A stretch of 21,911 bases of DNA from a virus, in the IMG/VR virus record IMGVR_UViG_3300005260_000008, positions 1-21,911 of that record. One strand, 5' to 3'. Made by a program: the position numbers and the translations under genes. Under the pieces are notes generated by a model. It was not told where the DNA came from. It did not search any database and saw only the letters and a list, made by a program, of their open reading frames with translations. Below are positions 4,103-21,911 of the stretch, one piece after another (within the stretch, counting starts at the first letter, position 1; each line of letters begins with the position of its first letter).

Positions 4103-5791
4103 TTATTTGACTCGCGTCACCGTGAAACCGCCAATCTTCTGGGATTGACCCTGACCAATTCCGCCCGATCCGGGGGCATTTCCGCCGATCAAGCTGGTGA
4201 GTGAATCCTTCTCGTCCTGCAATACTTTGAGAGCATTCTGACCATCCATTGTGATGGCTTTACCTGCCGCCTCCAGCGTGCCCTCGGACATGTATTTGTT
4301 GATGGCATCGTGCGCCTCTTTGCGCACAGACACGGACGGAGCCGCCGCTCCGGTCCCACCTGAATTCAACTTCGCATACTCACCTTCAACCGCGTTCAGG
4401 TGTACGACCAACTGAGCAACAGCCGGATCGCCCTTGACGCCTTGTTGCCATGCTCGGATAGCACGGTTGACCAATGGTGACTGGCTGCCACCAGCAGCTT
4501 TTGCAGCATCCAGCAGGTTACGCAAGTCCAAATCCAGCTTTTTAACCGCAGGCTCTATTACCGCGAGCTTCTTGGTGTTCATGTCCAGCGCCTGACCGTT
4601 GGCCTTCAATGCTCCCTGCCGGGCGGCGATTGCTCCAGCAGTATCGCCACTGGCCGCCGCATCTGATGCCACCTTCTCCAACACCTTTGCCTGCATTGCC
4701 GGATTGCGACCAAAGGCTGCGGGAAACTTGCCTGTCGTGCGGTATGTATCCGCGGCAAATTGCAGCGCCTGATCGGATACGTTCTGAGCGCCGTAGATAC
4801 TGGCGTTGAAAGGCTGCTTGCCGACCGCCTGAGAGTCTGTAACCAGAGTGGGAAGGCCTGTTTTTGTGTCTACAATCTGCTTTAGCCCTTCTTCGCCCTT
4901 TACCTGACTCAGCTTGCCGGTAACTTGGTTCTTCTGATAGATCGAGCCCAACGGACCATTGATAGTCTGCTCGGGCACAATCGGCGCTTCATCGCCCAAC
5001 TGCACGCGCGAGGCGATCTTGTTACGTGCCGAATTCAACACAGTCCGGACATTCTGGTCCGTGAAATCCTTGACCGGATTGAATCCTAACTGCGGTGCGA
5101 CTTGATTCCAGATCTGGTGCAATGCTGAGTCTGCGGCCACGTATTGCGTTGGTTTATCCGACTTCACCACTGTGTCGAGCGCGGAGATCTGAGGCTGCGC
5201 CTGTCGCTGCGCTTCCTTCAATTGCAACTCGTAGGTCTCTTTCTCCGCCGTGAGGGGATCTTTGCCACTCAACACTGCAAGACGCTTGTAGGTCTGTGCC
5301 GGTATGCCGTTGATCGGCATCTGCGAAATATCATCCGAGGCCGCGGCCAACTGAGTGGGCGCCTGGACGGATTGGGAGGTCGGCTGCGCCCCAGCTGCCG
5401 GCATCTGACTGATGCCGGGAAGGAATGCCTGCTGAGCGGGAGGCTGTGCAGGAGGCGGTTGGCCTGCCGATGGCGTAGCAGCGCCCTGACCCCCGTTCAG
5501 GTAGTCCATGATCGCCTGCTGCTTCTGCAGGCTCGTGCCCAAGCCAATCGCCCCTTGCGCGAGCTGCAGCCGGTTCATCATGTTCTGCTGCTGCAACTGC
5601 TGTGTGTCGAGCGCAGACTTGCCCAGGATCTGGCCGAAATGGCCCCCTGAGTTGGAATTCGCGAGCAGCGAGAGGCCGAAGTTCGACGTGGGGTCAGCGC
5701 CCCCCAACAGGCCCGACATCGGGCCCGAGGGTGCGGAGTAATTCAGTAGCCAGCCCAGCAACTGCTGCATGGCATCCGGAGAAGCACTCAT
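4103..5791 (-). CDS. Internal virion / ejection-type protein (562 aa)
   Basis: Starts at ATG 5789-5791 with GGGAG seven bases upstream; that site lies in the glycine-zipper tail codons after the preceding gene. Residues 1-60 are Gly/Ser-rich. Then comes a Gln-rich helix (TQQLQQQNMMNRLQLAQGAI) and a Pro/Gln/Ala linker at about 105-150. The remainder is mostly helical, with Ala/Lys/Leu-rich coiled-coil-like stretches, and the C-terminus ends IGGFTVTRVK. No enzyme motif is seen. Composition and position between two other low-complexity virion proteins suggest an injected internal protein or a scaffold for the ejectosome. It is immediately followed by the 643-aa gene. Confidence 0.68.
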   Translation of the reverse strand: MSASPDAMQQLLGWLLNYSAPSGPMSGLLGGADPTSNFGLSLLANSNSGGHFGQILGKSALDTQQLQQQNMMNRLQLAQGAIGLGTSLQKQQAIMDYLNGGQGAATPSAGQPPPAQPPAQQAFLPGISQMPAAGAQPTSQSVQAPTQLAAASDDISQMPINGIPAQTYKRLAVLSGKDPLTAEKETYELQLKEAQRQAQPQISALDTVVKSDKPTQYVAADSALHQIWNQVAPQLGFNPVKDFTDQNVRTVLNSARNKIASRVQLGDEAPIVPEQTINGPLGSIYQKNQVTGKLSQVKGEEGLKQIVDTKTGLPTLVTDSQAVGKQPFNASIYGAQNVSDQALQFAADTYRTTGKFPAAFGRNPAMQAKVLEKVASDAAASGDTAGAIAARQGALKANGQALDMNTKKLAVIEPAVKKLDLDLRNLLDAAKAAGGSQSPLVNRAIRAWQQGVKGDPAVAQLVVHLNAVEGEYAKLNSGGTGAAAPSVSVRKEAHDAINKYMSEGTLEAAGKAITMDGQNALKVLQDEKDSLTSLIGGNAPGSGGIGQGQSQKIGGFTVTRVK

Positions 5792-5794
5792 TGA

Positions 5795-5854
5795 TCAACT
5801 CCCGCCGAGCAATCCGCCCAACACGCTACCGGCCAAAGAGACACACCCGCCCCC
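5795..5854 (-). other. In-frame 19-codon extension behind the TGA of the glycine-zipper gene
   Basis: Read in the same frame past TGA 5855-5857, this segment encodes GGGCVSLAGSVLGGLLGGS and then TGA. The LAGSVLGGLLGG core continues the periodicity of the zipper encoded just before the stop. The segment also contains GGGAG, the ribosome binding site of the 562-aa gene. It is either a readthrough tail or the remnant of an ancestral longer C-terminus. Confidence 0.7.
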
Positions 5855-6559
5855 TCAGGAGACGCCCAGAGCGCTTCCGATCGCATTACCGAGCCCCGCG
5901 CCTACGATGCCGCCACCCAATGCGCCAGCGCCGGCATTGAAGGCAGGCGTGCTCGAAGTCGTCTGACCCAAGGCACCGTTCACCTCCGAGAGATACTGGT
6001 TCAGGAAATTCTGTGGGGCGTTGATGTACTGCTGGCTCTGGTTCTGGACCTGCTGCCCGGCCCCGCTCAATGCGGACTGCAAGGCCAACTGGCTCTGCAG
6101 GTTGCTCGGTGCGGCATTCAGGGCCGCCTGCTGCAAGCCGGCTTGCGTGTTGAAGGCGTTGCCATACAGATTCGCACCGAATGTGCCGAGCGCGAGCGCA
6201 TTGGCGCCTTGGGATTGATCGACGTTTCGGCCGGCGCCTGCAAACTGACTCGCCAACTGGTTCTGGATCTGGTTGGCACCTTGTGAGAACAGCGCATTCA
6301 ACTGCGGGTTCTGCTGAACGTTGCCGCCCAAGGTATTCGTGATGAAGCTCTGCGCCGCCTGGGTGGCAGGGTCTCCATTGGCCGCCATGTTGGTGATGTT
6401 GGAGATCGCCTGCTCCTGCTGGGGAGCAAATGGAGCCACCAAAGTTTTGGTATTCTGGTACTGACTCAACGCCTGGTTGAGACCGTAGTTTTGATAACCG
6501 GTCTGCCACGAGGGCGCTGTTGATGTTTGTGTCGCGGGAGTGGTGTCGAAGATTCCCAT
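5855..6559 (-). CDS. Gln/Ala-rich virion protein with C-terminal glycine zipper (234 aa), ended by an unexpected TGA
   Basis: Starts at ATG 6557-6559, one base after the stop of the upstream gene. The body is Gln/Asn/Ala-rich and helical (NQALSQYQNTKTL; QQYINAPQNFLNQYL) with an FAGAGRN motif at about 107-112 of a kind common in small podovirus virion proteins upstream of ejection genes. Residues 209-231 are a glycine zipper (GALGGGIVGAGLGNAIGSAL), a membrane-active motif typical of ejection proteins. The annotated stop is TGA at 5855-5857, but the same frame stays open for 19 more codons that extend the zipper to a second TGA at 5795-5797. The gene may therefore be 254 codons long with an internal TGA. 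Role inferred: minor virion or ejection protein. Confidence 0.72.
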   Translation of the reverse strand: MGIFDTTPATQTSTAPSWQTGYQNYGLNQALSQYQNTKTLVAPFAPQQEQAISNITNMAANGDPATQAAQSFITNTLGGNVQQNPQLNALFSQGANQIQNQLASQFAGAGRNVDQSQGANALALGTFGANLYGNAFNTQAGLQQAALNAAPSNLQSQLALQSALSGAGQQVQNQSQQYINAPQNFLNQYLSEVNGALGQTTSSTPAFNAGAGALGGGIVGAGLGNAIGSALGVS

Positions 6560-6560
6560 A

Positions 6561-7529
6561 TCAGGGTCCTGCGTGGATATTGCCTGTATTGACGTTGTTG
6601 GCCTTGCCCCATGCCGTAATGGCGGCAGCGGCTTGGGCTTTGGTCAACGTCGAACCATCGGGCAACAGGTAATGCCCGGTTGCGATTGCACCCGTAGGAG
6701 TGTTTCCGGTGAGACTCATGCCGTTGGTGGTGCCGAGCGCGGACGGTACCCACTTCGCGCCAGTCGATTTTGCCCACGCCGCCATTGCATCATTGCCGGC
6801 ATCGTTGGCCTTATCACTGATGGCACCCGAGCCGATGAGCCCTACCAACCCGGCTACCGCCAAAGGCGCGGCAGCACCCAGGAGGCTCCCTCCTGCACTG
6901 GCGCTACTTCCGGCGCCAGCGGCTCCTCCGGTTGCGAATCCACCGGAAGCGGCCAGGGAACTCGCGCCGGTCGAACCGATCGCCCCGCTTCCCAGGAGGC
7001 CTCCGGTTGCAGCACCAGCCCCTGCATCGGTTCCGGCCAACGCCGCGCCGGCATCGGCTGCAGCGGAATCCACCGCAGGCGCCACCGCTCCCGTGCCCAC
7101 AGTGGACAACGTAGGGCTTCCGCCTGCGAGGATCGAGGCTGCCGACCCGTCGGCCGCACCGCCGCCCAGAAGCCCGCTGATGCCGTTGTAGGCGCCCTTG
7201 AGAAGCTGCGGATTCTTGAGCACCGATCCCAAGAGGCCGGTTGCAATCGAGCCCAACGCGCTTCCGCCCGAACTCCCCGTGGCGTTGGTGTTGACCGGCG
7301 TGGGTGGCGGGGTTACCTGCGCATAGGCCCCGCCCTGCTTGGGGCTTCCGGCCATCTGGTAGGCCAACTGTGACCACGGTCCCATGCTGGCGAGCAATCC
7401 CCCGCCCGGGGATGCGGTGGCATCGAGTGAGGCTTGCGGGTACGGATTGAATCCCGCGGTGAGCAGTCCGCCCAAGGGTTGCTGGGGGTTCTGCATCCCG
7501 GTGAAGGGCTGAATCTGCATGTTAGGCAT
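6561..7529 (-). CDS. Gly/Ala-rich probable internal virion protein (322 aa)
   Basis: Starts at ATG 7527-7529 in a TGATG overlap with the nozzle gene. The N-terminal 80 residues are Gln/Pro/Gly-rich. Residues about 85-210 are almost wholly Gly, Ala and Ser with scattered Leu (SALGSIATGLLGSVL; GAALAGTDAGAGAATGGLLG). Residues about 215-238 form a hydrophobic helix (LLGAAAPLAVAGLVGLIGSG). The C-terminal 80 residues look globular (WAKSTGAKWVPSAL; ITAWGKANNVNTG). No family signature is recognised. Low complexity, a membrane-active helix and its place among ejection-type genes suggest an injected or neck-internal protein. The strong Gly/Ala codon bias also creates long but empty plus-strand frames here. 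Confidence 0.65.
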   Translation of the reverse strand: MPNMQIQPFTGMQNPQQPLGGLLTAGFNPYPQASLDATASPGGGLLASMGPWSQLAYQMAGSPKQGGAYAQVTPPPTPVNTNATGSSGGSALGSIATGLLGSVLKNPQLLKGAYNGISGLLGGGAADGSAASILAGGSPTLSTVGTGAVAPAVDSAAADAGAALAGTDAGAGAATGGLLGSGAIGSTGASSLAASGGFATGGAAGAGSSASAGGSLLGAAAPLAVAGLVGLIGSGAISDKANDAGNDAMAAWAKSTGAKWVPSALGTTNGMSLTGNTPTGAIATGHYLLPDGSTLTKAQAAAAITAWGKANNVNTGNIHAGP

Positions 7530-9609: not shown

Positions 9610-9945
9610 TTACTTGATCCGCTTGTCGATGGTGGTTCGGAACAGTGCAAATTCCGGCTTTTTGAGCTCGGCATGAATGCGCTTGGAGTATTCCGCCTGG
9701 AACATCAGTCCCGGCTCGATCCCCAGGCGCTGACAGACCATCAGCATAATGTTGTGCGGGATGGACATGGTGCGGCGGAATTCACCGCGCTTGCCGAATG
9801 CGCCGCGTTCTTCCGCATCCACCCGCCGTTCGCGCGCGCACATTTGCAGATGCGGCTCCACGTCCTGGTAGGTATGGATGAGAACCTTGTCGCCCTCTTC
9901 CTTGGCGGTGGTGATGGTGTCGCCCACAAACTGTGAAACATTCAT
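9610..9945 (-). CDS. Conserved-looking small phage protein upstream of the adaptor (111 aa)
   Basis: Starts at ATG 9943-9945, overlapping the upstream stop as ATGA. A much longer frame runs back to 10599, but it only shadows the adhesin-like gene, so the short form is chosen. The protein is charged and mostly helical: TITTAKEEGDKVLIHTYQDV, then VEPHLQMCARERR, GEFRRTMSIPHNIMLMVCQR, and a C-terminal LFRTTIDKRIK. The VEPHL...R...RR...SIP pattern followed by a short helix is one I associate with small proteins near the adaptor gene in podoviruses. No function is known to me; a virion assembly role is plausible from position only. Confidence 0.8.
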   Translation of the reverse strand: MNVSQFVGDTITTAKEEGDKVLIHTYQDVEPHLQMCARERRVDAEERGAFGKRGEFRRTMSIPHNIMLMVCQRLGIEPGLMFQAEYSKRIHAELKKPEFALFRTTIDKRIK

Positions 9946-11123
9946 AGCGTCAGTCCTGGCATCGCAGTCAAACAATCGAAAGAGCCTCCCGCACAGGTCA
10001 CCGGGGTCAGCGGGTGTCCGTAGATGAGTCCCACGTTCTGGCCCATCACCGGCACTGCCCGCATGCTCACCGGCATGACGTACACGTTGTGTCCGGCGGG
10101 CGCATAGACGAAGGTGACCGTTCTGCCGGCAACCGGAACCGACAACGCCGTCACACCGAGCGCATAGCCTGCAAAGGCCGGTGCCATGAGCACCGGAACC
10201 AATGCAGTACCCACTGGCAACAGGTAGTTGGTCGTTGCGCCGCTGTGATAGGTCAGCGTGACCGACTGGCCCGCGACCGCAACCGACCGGCTCGTAACCT
10301 GGAGGGTATGCCCAACCTTGAAATTGACCGTCTGCCCTGCAACTGGAACCGACAGTCTCGTGACTGGCAGGGTGTAGACGTGCGTCGCGTAGGTCAGCGT
10401 GACGGTCTGACCCACTACCGGCACATTGGCCTTGGTGACCGACAGCGTGTAGTTGGTGCCGCCCTCGGCAATGGCGACTGCCGCCACCATGAAGGACGAT
10501 CCACCATCGGCGGCCGTGAAGGTCGCCGGCAGCGCTGTAGTCGCAGTGACGCGCTTGTGCTCGGGACGGGCCCACGCCACCCCTCCGCCAAAGGCCCAAC
10601 AGGCTGTCAGGGATGTGAAGCCGGTCCCGGCCGTCGGCGAAGAGGCCGCGACCTGGGTAATGTCATAGCCGATGCCGAAGAATCCGCACGGCTGTGTCGT
10701 CAGGGTGCCGGTATTGCCGGAGGTAACACCATCCGCGCCCGTACCCGGGGAGTCCTGCTCGACGTACTTATTGCCCGCGACGGTGCCTGATAATCCAGAG
10801 CACTCAATGGCGAGAATCGACGGATCGTTGATCGCACCGGAGAAGTTGGCAGTAACCGCAGTCGTGCCGGCCGCGGCGCTTCCGATGACAAACGCCTGTA
10901 TCTCGTAGCCCTGAGCCGCGTTGTACAGCACCGTCCCGGCCGGCGTTACGGTGTCAGATCCACGGGTAACCGTGATGGTCTTGCTGCTGGCCGCACCCGT
11001 GGCGACAAACACCACGATCTGGTGGCCGGCCGTGACGGAAGACCCAAAGGCCGCCGTGGAGATCGTCGATATGCCCGAGCTGGTGCTCGAACCTTCGGTT
11101 TGCTGGATGACTGCGTATGTCAT
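9942..11123 (-). CDS. Adhesin-like virion protein with five to six short beta repeats (393 aa)
   Basis: Starts at ATG 11121-11123 in a TGATG overlap with the upstream 688-aa gene. Residues 1-222 form a beta-rich Gly/Ser/Thr domain (TAGHQIVVFVATGAASSKTI; PSILAIECSGLSG), a composition usual in phage surface or lectin-like domains. Residues 225-368 are a tandem array of units of about 25 residues with consensus YxLPVxxxSVPVxGQxVxLxY; copies begin near residues 225, 250, 273, 300 (degenerate), 320 and 348. A short Cys-containing tail ends the protein. The same unit occurs in the neighbouring 688-aa protein, so the two probably share an assembly or binding mode. The likely place is the capsid or tail surface. 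No enzyme motif is seen. Confidence 0.72.
   Translation of the reverse strand: MTYAVIQQTEGSSTSSGISTISTAAFGSSVTAGHQIVVFVATGAASSKTITVTRGSDTVTPAGTVLYNAAQGYEIQAFVIGSAAAGTTAVTANFSGAINDPSILAIECSGLSGTVAGNKYVEQDSPGTGADGVTSGNTGTLTTQPCGFFGIGYDITQVAASSPTAGTGFTSLTACWAFGGGVAWARPEHKRVTATTALPATFTAADGGSSFMVAAVAIAEGGTNYTLSVTKANVPVVGQTVTLTYATHVYTLPVTRLSVPVAGQTVNFKVGHTLQVTSRSVAVAGQSVTLTYHSGATTNYLLPVGTALVPVLMAPAFAGYALGVTALSVPVAGRTVTFVYAPAGHNVYVMPVSMRAVPVMGQNVGLIYGHPLTPVTCAGGSFDCLTAMPGLTL
10020..10451 (-). repeat. Tandem array encoding six 20-27 residue beta units
   Basis: Covers residues 225-368 of the 393-aa protein. Examples are YTLSVTKANVPVVGQTVTLT, YTLPVTRLSVPVAGQTVNF, YALGVTALSVPVAGRTVTF and YVMPVSMRAVPVMGQNVGL. 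The unit near 300 has lost the GQ turn. On the plus strand the recurring anticoding words include aaccggaaccgac and gtctgacc-like segments. Divergence between copies suggests an old duplication under selection for the fold. Confidence 0.85.
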
Positions 11124-13189
11124 CAGCTGAACTGCCCTATGAGTTGTTGAGTCTGAGTCGTGTGGTTATAGGCCGACAGATACAGACCCGAGAGCGAGGT
11201 GAACTCGCCCTGATTCAGCGCCAGGCGCCACGAACTCGTGGTCCCGCTGTTGATCGGAACCTGAAACTCCCGCTTCGTGCTCGATGACAACACGGAGTTG
11301 TCATGGATGTAGAACACCAAGTTGATAAAGTCGATGAAGTAATCGGCCCAATAGCCGGTATCGCCCACCTCGAGGAGATTCCCGAGGTCCAGCGTGTGAC
11401 CAGAGAGATTTCCAGGCGACCAGGTGGAACCTGTGCGATTCCACTGGTTTTTGCAGTTCAGCATCGTCTGGACTTGGATGCTGCTCAGAAGCTTGTTGTA
11501 GTACTCAACGTGATTCCATCCGGATGTGAAGGAATCAGGCGATGAGAAGACATCCTGGGCTTCGTTATTCGATCCCGTGAGGTCGCTACCGCCTGCGCTC
11601 GTGCCGTTGGTCGCGAAGTAGATCGAGTCTGCCGAGCCCCACGAGCGCCAGTGCTTGCCGTTGTACGTCGAGCCGAGTCGGAACTTGTAGCCGACGTATA
11701 GTTCAGCCGGGTTCGTCGAGGGGAACATCTGCAATTCGCCCTGCCGCGAGGTCTGACCTCGTTGGCGGGCGCATTTGGTCAGGTTGGTGGGCGGCGTGAC
11801 AGTGGTGCTGGTGACCACATCCCACACCGCACCCCCGGTATTCCAGGCCAACCCGTTGTTCTGGTATTGACCATCTTCAAAGGACTTGGCGAGGTAGCAG
11901 GTATACTGGTTACCGTTCCAGGTGTAGGTGGACGGGTTGTAGTTTCCGCGTGCGATGAGCGCACTGAGCGCGCTGTTGACCGTAAAGGGCGCGCCGTGAG
12001 TGAAGGTGCTATCGGGTGTGACGGTGAAGTTGGCCTGCGGCGTAAACCCGCTCGTATGCGAGTAGGTCAACGTGACTGCCTGTCCGGTCACCGGGACCGA
12101 CTTCTTGGCGACCGGCAACACATAGCCACGGGTCGTCGGCGGAATGAACTCGACGTTGTCGAAATAGAACACGTCGCCGACGTTGCTGCTGTTGTTCTGG
12201 ACGTTGGTCTTGTACCAAGCCGTCAACTGCGTGGGCGTGCCGGAGGTATAGTCCAGCATCAGAACAGATAGCGGAATCGTGACCCGCACCCAGGAGCCAT
12301 TGACCAGGGTTGCGTAGGTAGACGACTGCACTACCAGCTGCGTGCCGCCTGAATTCTGTATCGGGACATCACCGACCCGGATGGGCACGAGCTGCAGAGA
12401 GGAGCCCGACTGCATGGCTTTGACATCCATTGCCAAATAGCCATAGGCGCCAATGGCGAGGTTCCACTGCGTGGCGTTGTTGCCTGCCCATGGAATCCAG
12501 TCACCAAACGCGCCGGTTGTGGTCATCTTCATGCACAGGGTGTGTCCGCCCTGTGGAGCACCGGTCGTGCTCGCATAGTCCGTGGTCGCATTGAGGTTGA
12601 AATCACCTCCGGTGTGATCCTGCACCCCGTTGGCGTAGTACACGCACTTCTGCGTATCGGACAGCGGACCCTCAACACTCCCTACGATCGCGGAGATCTT
12701 GTACCGGTAGACGTTCGCGACGTAGTAGTCAGGGCCTGAACCCGCCGTGCCGTTCACACACAGCGTGGCTGCCAGATCTTGGTAGCTATTGGTCGATGGC
12801 GTGCCGACGACGCTGTAACTGCCCCCGTTGGTCGAACGATAGACGTTGTAGCTCGTGGCACCCGATACGGCATCCCACAGAACCGTCTGTTGATTCGGCA
12901 GCGGCGGCGTGGGCGGGCTGGGCGTCGAGTTTGAACTGCTCTGGCCCTGAAGGCCGATGCGCACGTTCAGTGGCGCTGCGGGAGTTCCCGAGGCCGGGGT
13001 GTAGCCCAACACCACGGTTTCACCGATGACGGTAATCGAGCGTGCAGCGACCGACAGCGAGTAGCTAGTGCCCGAAGTGCCTGTTTTCCTCAGTGAGACG
13101 AAGATCCCACGGCAATTGAGGAATGCACGGCTGACCGGCAGAGTCTTCGGGCCGAATCCAAATCCGACCCGAAGCGAAAGAGCCGTCAT
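11123..13189 (-). CDS. Modular carbohydrate-binding-type virion protein (688 aa): beta repeats, FnIII, CBM-like and lectin-like domains
   Basis: Starts at ATG 13187-13189 in an ATGA overlap. Reading along the protein: a degenerate beta repeat near 16-34; a clear repeat at 43-64 (YSLSVAARSITVIGETVVLG); a fibronectin type III-like domain at about 72-180 with VLWDAVSGATSYNVYRSTNG; a jelly-roll, carbohydrate-binding-module-like domain at about 186-350 with WVRVTIPLS and FYFDNVEF; a second clear repeat at 356-376 (YVLPVAKKSVPVTGQAVTLT); then a probable concanavalin-like lectin domain to the C-terminus (LYVGYKFRLGS, GWNHVEYYNKL, GYWADYFIDFINLVFYIHD). The set suggests glycan attachment, as a decoration or appendage. 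Its place behind capsid genes rather than in the fibre slot fits a head-surface or neck adhesin. I see no catalytic residues that allow an enzyme call. Confidence 0.75.
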   Translation of the reverse strand: MTALSLRVGFGFGPKTLPVSRAFLNCRGIFVSLRKTGTSGTSYSLSVAARSITVIGETVVLGYTPASGTPAAPLNVRIGLQGQSSSNSTPSPPTPPLPNQQTVLWDAVSGATSYNVYRSTNGGSYSVVGTPSTNSYQDLAATLCVNGTAGSGPDYYVANVYRYKISAIVGSVEGPLSDTQKCVYYANGVQDHTGGDFNLNATTDYASTTGAPQGGHTLCMKMTTTGAFGDWIPWAGNNATQWNLAIGAYGYLAMDVKAMQSGSSLQLVPIRVGDVPIQNSGGTQLVVQSSTYATLVNGSWVRVTIPLSVLMLDYTSGTPTQLTAWYKTNVQNNSSNVGDVFYFDNVEFIPPTTRGYVLPVAKKSVPVTGQAVTLTYSHTSGFTPQANFTVTPDSTFTHGAPFTVNSALSALIARGNYNPSTYTWNGNQYTCYLAKSFEDGQYQNNGLAWNTGGAVWDVVTSTTVTPPTNLTKCARQRGQTSRQGELQMFPSTNPAELYVGYKFRLGSTYNGKHWRSWGSADSIYFATNGTSAGGSDLTGSNNEAQDVFSSPDSFTSGWNHVEYYNKLLSSIQVQTMLNCKNQWNRTGSTWSPGNLSGHTLDLGNLLEVGDTGYWADYFIDFINLVFYIHDNSVLSSSTKREFQVPINSGTTSSWRLALNQGEFTSLSGLYLSAYNHTTQTQQLIGQFS
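12062..12124 (-). repeat. Beta repeat unit between CBM-like and lectin-like domains
   Basis: Encodes residues 356-376 of the 688-aa protein, a near-consensus copy of the unit found in tandem in the neighbouring 393-aa protein. Confidence 0.8.
12998..13063 (-). repeat. Beta repeat unit in the N-terminal part of the 688-aa protein
   Basis: Encodes residues 43-64, matching the YxLxVxxxSxxVxGxxVxLxY pattern of the neighbouring protein, with GE in place of the usual GQ. Confidence 0.75.
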
Positions 13190-21153: not shown

Positions 21154-21911
21154 TTAGCCCTGCCAGATCTTTTTCTCGTAAATATCGAATGTGTAAGGGA
21201 ATTGCGCGCTCGTGAGCGGGAACAGGAGCGAGCTGATATAGGTGGCAATGAAGCTGCCACAACCCAGGTTGGTGCCCAACTGACCCGTACAACCAGACCC
21301 CCACGGCATCACGTAGCAGGTGAACAACACGCCATCCACAAAGCGGTAGCTACGGTCGGGGGTCCAGAGGATCTGATATTTGTGGGTCGTAGCTGAATAA
21401 TCAGGGGCGCCAGCGGGACGGAAGAACCCAAACGCATCCCAGTAGGAGGAATGGACGCCGATGAGCTTTGCGTACTCCTGGCGCTCGTATAGGCCACCGT
21501 GGTTGTTGCCGGACCAGGCAGAGGCATTCGCGCTACCGCTGATGTTGAACTCGAAGTTGTCCAGTTCAGAGGCATCGATCGGAAAGCCTTCACTGGTGCG
21601 CGAGTACACCCAATCGGCCGGCCATGCCCCTTGCTTGGTGTTGCCGGGGATCTGGCAGGTGATTTCGATGGCAATGAAATTGGCGCCGTTCTTCCCCGGC
21701 TGATAGCCGGCCTTGGTCCACATCTGTCCCGAGGTGATCGGCGGGGACATGATCGTGAAATCACTCGTCGCCTGACTGACTGAGCCATCGAAGGTGATGG
21801 TCGTGCCGGTTTTACTGACAACCCGGCGAGTGCCAAAGGTACCGGTCGTGATGTTGTTGTAGTACATCCCGACCTGAATTCCGGAGGGCACGGACGAGTA
21901 CGTCATCGTGG
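21154..21911 (-). CDS. GH16-family glycoside hydrolase-like protein, 5' end probably beyond the window
   Basis: A concanavalin-like glucanase fold that would cut beta-linked glycans (beta-1,3 or 1,3-1,4 glucans, agar-like or capsular polymers). Numbering from ATG 21904-21906, the family landmarks are GAWPADW at 93-99, the catalytic pattern ExDxxE as ELDNFE (nucleophile E114, D116, acid/base E119), and HKYQILWTPDRSYRFVDGVL at 175-194, which matches the WTP...VDG strand pair of GH16. There is no signal peptide at the visible start. The first 50 residues read like a beta linker (TGTFGTRRVVSKTGTTITFD), and the frame remains open to the window edge, so the gene probably begins upstream and this is its C-terminal part. 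In a phage this suggests a virion-borne depolymerase. Substrate cannot be told from sequence. Confidence 0.85.
   Translation of the reverse strand, partial: TMTYSSVPSGIQVGMYYNNITTGTFGTRRVVSKTGTTITFDGSVSQATSDFTIMSPPITSGQMWTKAGYQPGKNGANFIAIEITCQIPGNTKQGAWPADWVYSRTSEGFPIDASELDNFEFNISGSANASAWSGNNHGGLYERQEYAKLIGVHSSYWDAFGFFRPAGAPDYSATTHKYQILWTPDRSYRFVDGVLFTCYVMPWGSGCTGQLGTNLGCGSFIATYISSLLFPLTSAQFPYTFDIYEKKIWQG

Follow-up and report, generated by a model that had tools for sequence, protein, structure and literature searches.

A premature in-frame TGA ahead of the second C-terminal glycine zipper of a putative DNA ejection protein in an SU10-like phage contig

Why should the gene of a virion protein stop at a TGA when the DNA behind it goes on, in the same frame, with what looks like more of the same motif? 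The question is raised by a gene in the window, by which we mean the whole 21,911-nucleotide stretch analyzed here (IMGVR_UViG_3300005260_000008, positions 1–21,911). This record is a 21.9-kb virus contig that encodes an SU10-type portal, a major capsid protein and an adaptor (Pfam SU10 families), together with a large terminase and a nozzle-like virion protein. The gene in question, here called the zipper gene, lies two genes behind the nozzle-like gene, inside the structural block that follows the nozzle and adaptor genes, among large proteins rich in Gly, Ala and Gln. A first-pass annotation had described a 234-residue frame closed by a TGA, 19 further codons and a second TGA, and both its coordinates and its sequence are correct. 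The 234-codon frame runs from 6559 to 5855 on the minus strand and terminates at the TGA of 5857–5855; read on in the same frame, the DNA gives the 19 sense codons GGGCVSLAGSVLGGLLGGS (the tail) and then the second TGA at 5797–5795, so that the junction on the minus strand reads ...GALGGGIVGAGLGNAIGSALGVS-TGA-GGGCVSLAGSVLGGLLGGS-TGA. The elements of the locus are the following.

6561..7529, minus strand: preceding gene, 322 aa, Gly/Ala-rich, ending 1 nt before the start of the zipper gene (gene list, comparison)
5855..6559, minus strand: truncated frame, 234 aa, of a Gly/Ala/Gln-rich virion protein that is distantly related to the DNA ejection proteins of phages (phrog_4287; homologue searches, E=0.0011 for the window protein and stronger for other members)
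5855..5857, minus strand: premature TGA, private to this record; the aligned codons are Ser (L002), Thr (L003) and Gly (L008) (codon alignment)
5798..5854, minus strand: 19 sense codons, GGGCVSLAGSVLGGLLGGS, corresponding to the family's second C-terminal glycine zipper and still in frame (translation, alignment)
5799..5803, minus strand: GGGAG, which overlaps the tail's final codons and is likely the Shine-Dalgarno sequence of the gene that follows (read from the sequence)
5795..5797, minus strand: ancestral stop position, occupied by TGA here and by TAA in L002; 3 nt separate it from the next gene (codon alignment)
4103..5791, minus strand: next gene, 562 aa, likely another ejection or internal virion protein, starting 63 nt behind the premature stop (gene list, comparison with the L002 phage)

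The spacing of the genes already distinguishes the two stops. The second TGA stands 3 nt ahead of the ATG of the next gene (5791), whereas the first leaves a gap of 63 nt before it. Because the other neighbors in the series of genes from 9941 down to 2171 overlap or lie about 1 nt apart, the 63-nt gap is atypical of the block and the 3-nt distance typical.

Relatives of the zipper protein were gathered by two scans of IMG/VR, one with the protein and one with its alignment, and by tblastn in loci fetched via the major capsid protein. Their identities range from 86% (the window protein against L002) down to about 33%, and the homology of the remaining 234 residues to the close family (L002, L003, L008 and others) is not in doubt. 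At 86, 72, 62 and about 50% identity, and in the remote relatives at about 33%, sense codons run through the site of the stop in all sequences with a readable C-terminus, a set that leaves aside L013 and L076, which run off their contigs. None of the readable relatives, then, ends at the first stop. The closest of them, L002 (86% identical), aligns without gaps over all 254 codons and ends in ...AIGNALGGS-S-GGGWGSLIGAIGGGLLGGS, followed by TAA; the ends of L003 and L008 read ...FGGSTGSGWGGLLGALGGAYLGG and ...FNNSGSSGWGSLLGGLAGAFLGGQG. The homologue in the isolated phage C72C1, which was reached with the family profile (E 4e-33), also continues through the site and has a glycine-rich segment at its end. 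A second glycine-rich C-terminal segment is present in most relatives; the 234-residue product of the record is without it, and the DNA behind the stop retains it. Behind the zipper the remote homologues are more variable; L024, for example, continues with an Ala-rich end. Two of the relatives, L021 (9713–10873) and L023 (7233–8312), carry a C-terminal Peptidase_S74 domain (chaperone of endosialidase) immediately after the glycine zipper (Pfam E values of 7e-08 and 4e-07), an unexpected domain for an ejection-type protein. No relatives of the zipper protein were found in bacterial genomes, and neither exact DNA patterns nor neighboring proteins retrieved a further record of the same virus that covers the site.

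Since every readable relative has sense codons at this position, the comparison identifies the TGA as private to the record and the tail as the ancestral C-terminus. By the same alignments, the C-terminus of the family normally consists of two glycine-rich segments, and the stop of the record interrupts the Gly/Ser turn that separates the two. A structural model of a full-length relative has a mean pLDDT of 42, which is too poor for a fold search; the same low-confidence model draws two short C-terminal helices, at residues 217–230 and 239–251, that flank the position of the stop. If these helices are correct, the truncation would take away one half of a glycine-rich helix pair.

The proposal that the tail continues the zipper, and does not do so by accident, is borne out by its comparison with L002. 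The tail is the family's second C-terminal glycine-rich segment, and it matches the last 19 residues of the L002 homologue at 13 of 19 positions, in register and without gaps; among the approximately 43,700 stretches of 57 bases in the window (all frames, both strands) the runner-up reached 9. The likeness is thus far above chance. Behind the other genes of the window, the same-frame continuation is either unrelated sequence or the frame of the next or an overlapping gene.

The mode of divergence of the tail is equally informative. Between the window and L002 it has accumulated 24 substitutions, 13 of them at third positions, and yet only 6 of the 19 codons show a replacement. When 24 substitutions were simulated without constraint, about 13 replacements were expected, and the share of the 20,000 runs with six or fewer was printed as 0.0. 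The tail has therefore diverged from L002 in the manner of coding DNA, which leaves for the stop a recent origin, an error or readthrough; the small number of replacements implies that the tail was under translation during most of the period since the split from the L002 phage, or that it is read through. L003 was used to assign the replacements to the two branches. On the window branch there are 4 in the 19 codons of the tail and 12 in the 234 of the body (Fisher p=0.023, for four changes that were noticed post hoc); on the L002 branch there are 0 in the tail and 13 in the body. This mild excess weakly suggests a relaxed constraint in the lineage of the record, as expected of a tail that is no longer translated. 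It thereby tips the balance slightly from an isolated base error toward a true nonsense mutation and speaks, as weakly, against a functional extended form. In two of the four codons concerned, 245 and 247, all three bases differ from L002, and these changes are consequently not simple base-call slips.

We consider it slightly better than an even bet that the TGA at 5857–5855 is a private and recent nonsense codon, carried by an SU10-like podophage in the gene of an internal virion protein of the DNA-ejection type. In its ancestral state the protein has 254 residues and ends in two glycine-zipper segments with a Gly/Ser turn between them. The stop strikes this turn and removes the second segment, cutting the protein 20 residues short; most ribosomes would terminate there and release a protein of 234 residues. 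The 19 codons behind the stop would be the former C-terminus, which has yet to decay. From the ordinary leakiness of UGA a trace of full-length product would be expected, and there is no sign of selection for it.

That the stop is a real mutation, as opposed to an error, is something we infer, and the competing view, in which the metagenomic contig is wrong at this place and the virus has a sense codon and makes a normal protein of 254 residues, retains an appreciable though lesser probability. The stop is private, lies within an otherwise intact module and strikes a segment that is kept in nearly all relatives. The second zipper is in fact preserved in nearly all relatives with readable ends, so that its loss would probably be costly, which weighs against a truncation. 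Moreover, the site belongs to a G-rich run that contains GGCGGG, a motif reported to be the chief cause of strand-specific errors on the MiSeq (PMC3431227), although the platform used for this record may differ. Directly behind that motif stand two odd replacements, W239C and G240V, where L002, L003 and L008 all have Trp and Gly. Nonetheless, the stop itself lies before GGCGGG on the minus strand and not behind it, and elsewhere in its vicinity the private changes involve several bases of a codon at once, which has the look of genuine evolution. Nor does an interior stop occur in any other window gene that could be paired with one of the L002 phage. Of the three origins that the first-pass annotation had offered, a recent nonsense mutation and a base-call or consensus error are accordingly the two that stand. 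The third, programmed readthrough of the UGA, finds no relative with a stop at the site, and in the window it finds no suppressor tRNA, recoding or unusual RNA structure on which to rely.

It is, in our judgment, improbable that such readthrough has been selected here to yield a major form of 234 residues and a minor one of 254, after the fashion of the Qbeta coat and A1 proteins. For a phage structural gene, Qbeta A1 provides a precedent of UGA readthrough (PMC6526423), and the tail is in frame and has evolved under coding constraint, observations that ancestry explains equally well. However, the stop is not conserved among the homologues, and the branch that leads to the window shows more replacements in the tail, not fewer. 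The base after the stop is G, and a G after UGA is not known as a strong readthrough context. Three devices by which the codon could be decoded were considered and rejected: an alternative genetic code in which UGA is recoded, as TGA terminates most genes of the window; a suppressor tRNA, as the 21.9-kb record, a fragment, contains no tRNA; and a stimulatory RNA fold, as the structure around the stop is not unusual (z = -0.27). A more specific version, in which a leaky UGA has been newly placed between the two zippers of the ejection protein in this SU10-like lineage and provides short and long forms in a set ratio, appears to us slightly less probable still. Least credible of all is a real truncation of long standing, with the tail DNA kept on some other account, for instance because it houses the ribosome-binding site of the gene that follows. 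GGGAG does stand in the tail's final codons, ahead of the next ATG; but such a site would preserve only the last few bases, and the coding-type pattern spans the whole of the tail.

Whether the stop is a recent nonsense mutation or an error, the finding is an ordinary one, and nothing that we found points to a new decoding trick. Annotators should treat the gene as a shortened copy from a family of 254-residue proteins, and should not mistake the C-terminus given by the record for the family's real end. The comparison also reveals a two-segment glycine-zipper C-terminus in a family of ejection-type phage proteins. Should the extended form occur in virions, it would be unusual as an instance of UGA readthrough affecting a structural protein of a double-stranded DNA phage.

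Other features of the window deserve mention in their own right. A module of about 21 residues, Y-x-L-x-V-x4-V-x-V-x-G-x2-V-x-L-x-Y, occurs in two adjacent proteins of the tail region (9942–11123 and 11123–13189, minus strand); four matches to the pattern lie in the first (393 aa) and one in the second (688 aa), and more degenerate copies can be seen by eye. The closest relative here, L014, has no match to the module, and its counterpart of the 393-aa protein has a different repeat (LTGQTVTASQGT-like). The 688-aa frame corresponds to two overlapping L014 genes (5577–6488 and 6485–7477, plus strand; 303 and 330 aa), and the join between them within the window's frame holds one copy of the module. 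At the end of the window (21154–21909, minus strand) a partial protein is encoded that shares 96% identity with the C-terminal part of a protein of 551 aa in the L002 phage, whereas the other proteins common to the two are about 51–86% identical; a recent exchange or a strong constraint are possible explanations.

How, finally, does the locus compare with known systems? With the coat and A1 proteins of Qbeta, whose readthrough product is important for infectious particles (PMC6526423), it has in common that a UGA stands in frame in the gene of a virion protein and that coding sequence follows; it differs in that its relatives have no stop and that nothing indicates a selected second form. In the Kuravirus SU10, gp20–24 are present in the virion and absent from the genome-release intermediate, and are hence taken to be ejection proteins (PMC9509320). 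The window resembles SU10 in its portal, capsid and adaptor and in having the zipper gene placed a short way behind the nozzle-like gene; tblastn of the zipper protein matched no record in the phage collection. There is also a tie with the DNA ejection proteins of phrog_4287. The window protein, without the family's last 20 residues, matches it weakly over residues 94–232, whereas 7 of the 14 aligned family members match it, the best at 1e-29, as does the C72C1 homologue (8e-13), which sits in the structural block with a nozzle-like protein on one side and an annotated DNA ejection protein on the other. Place and distant similarity together suggest that the zipper protein is a distant relative of the DNA ejection proteins, with a presumptive role in ejection, within the module of an SU10-like podophage.
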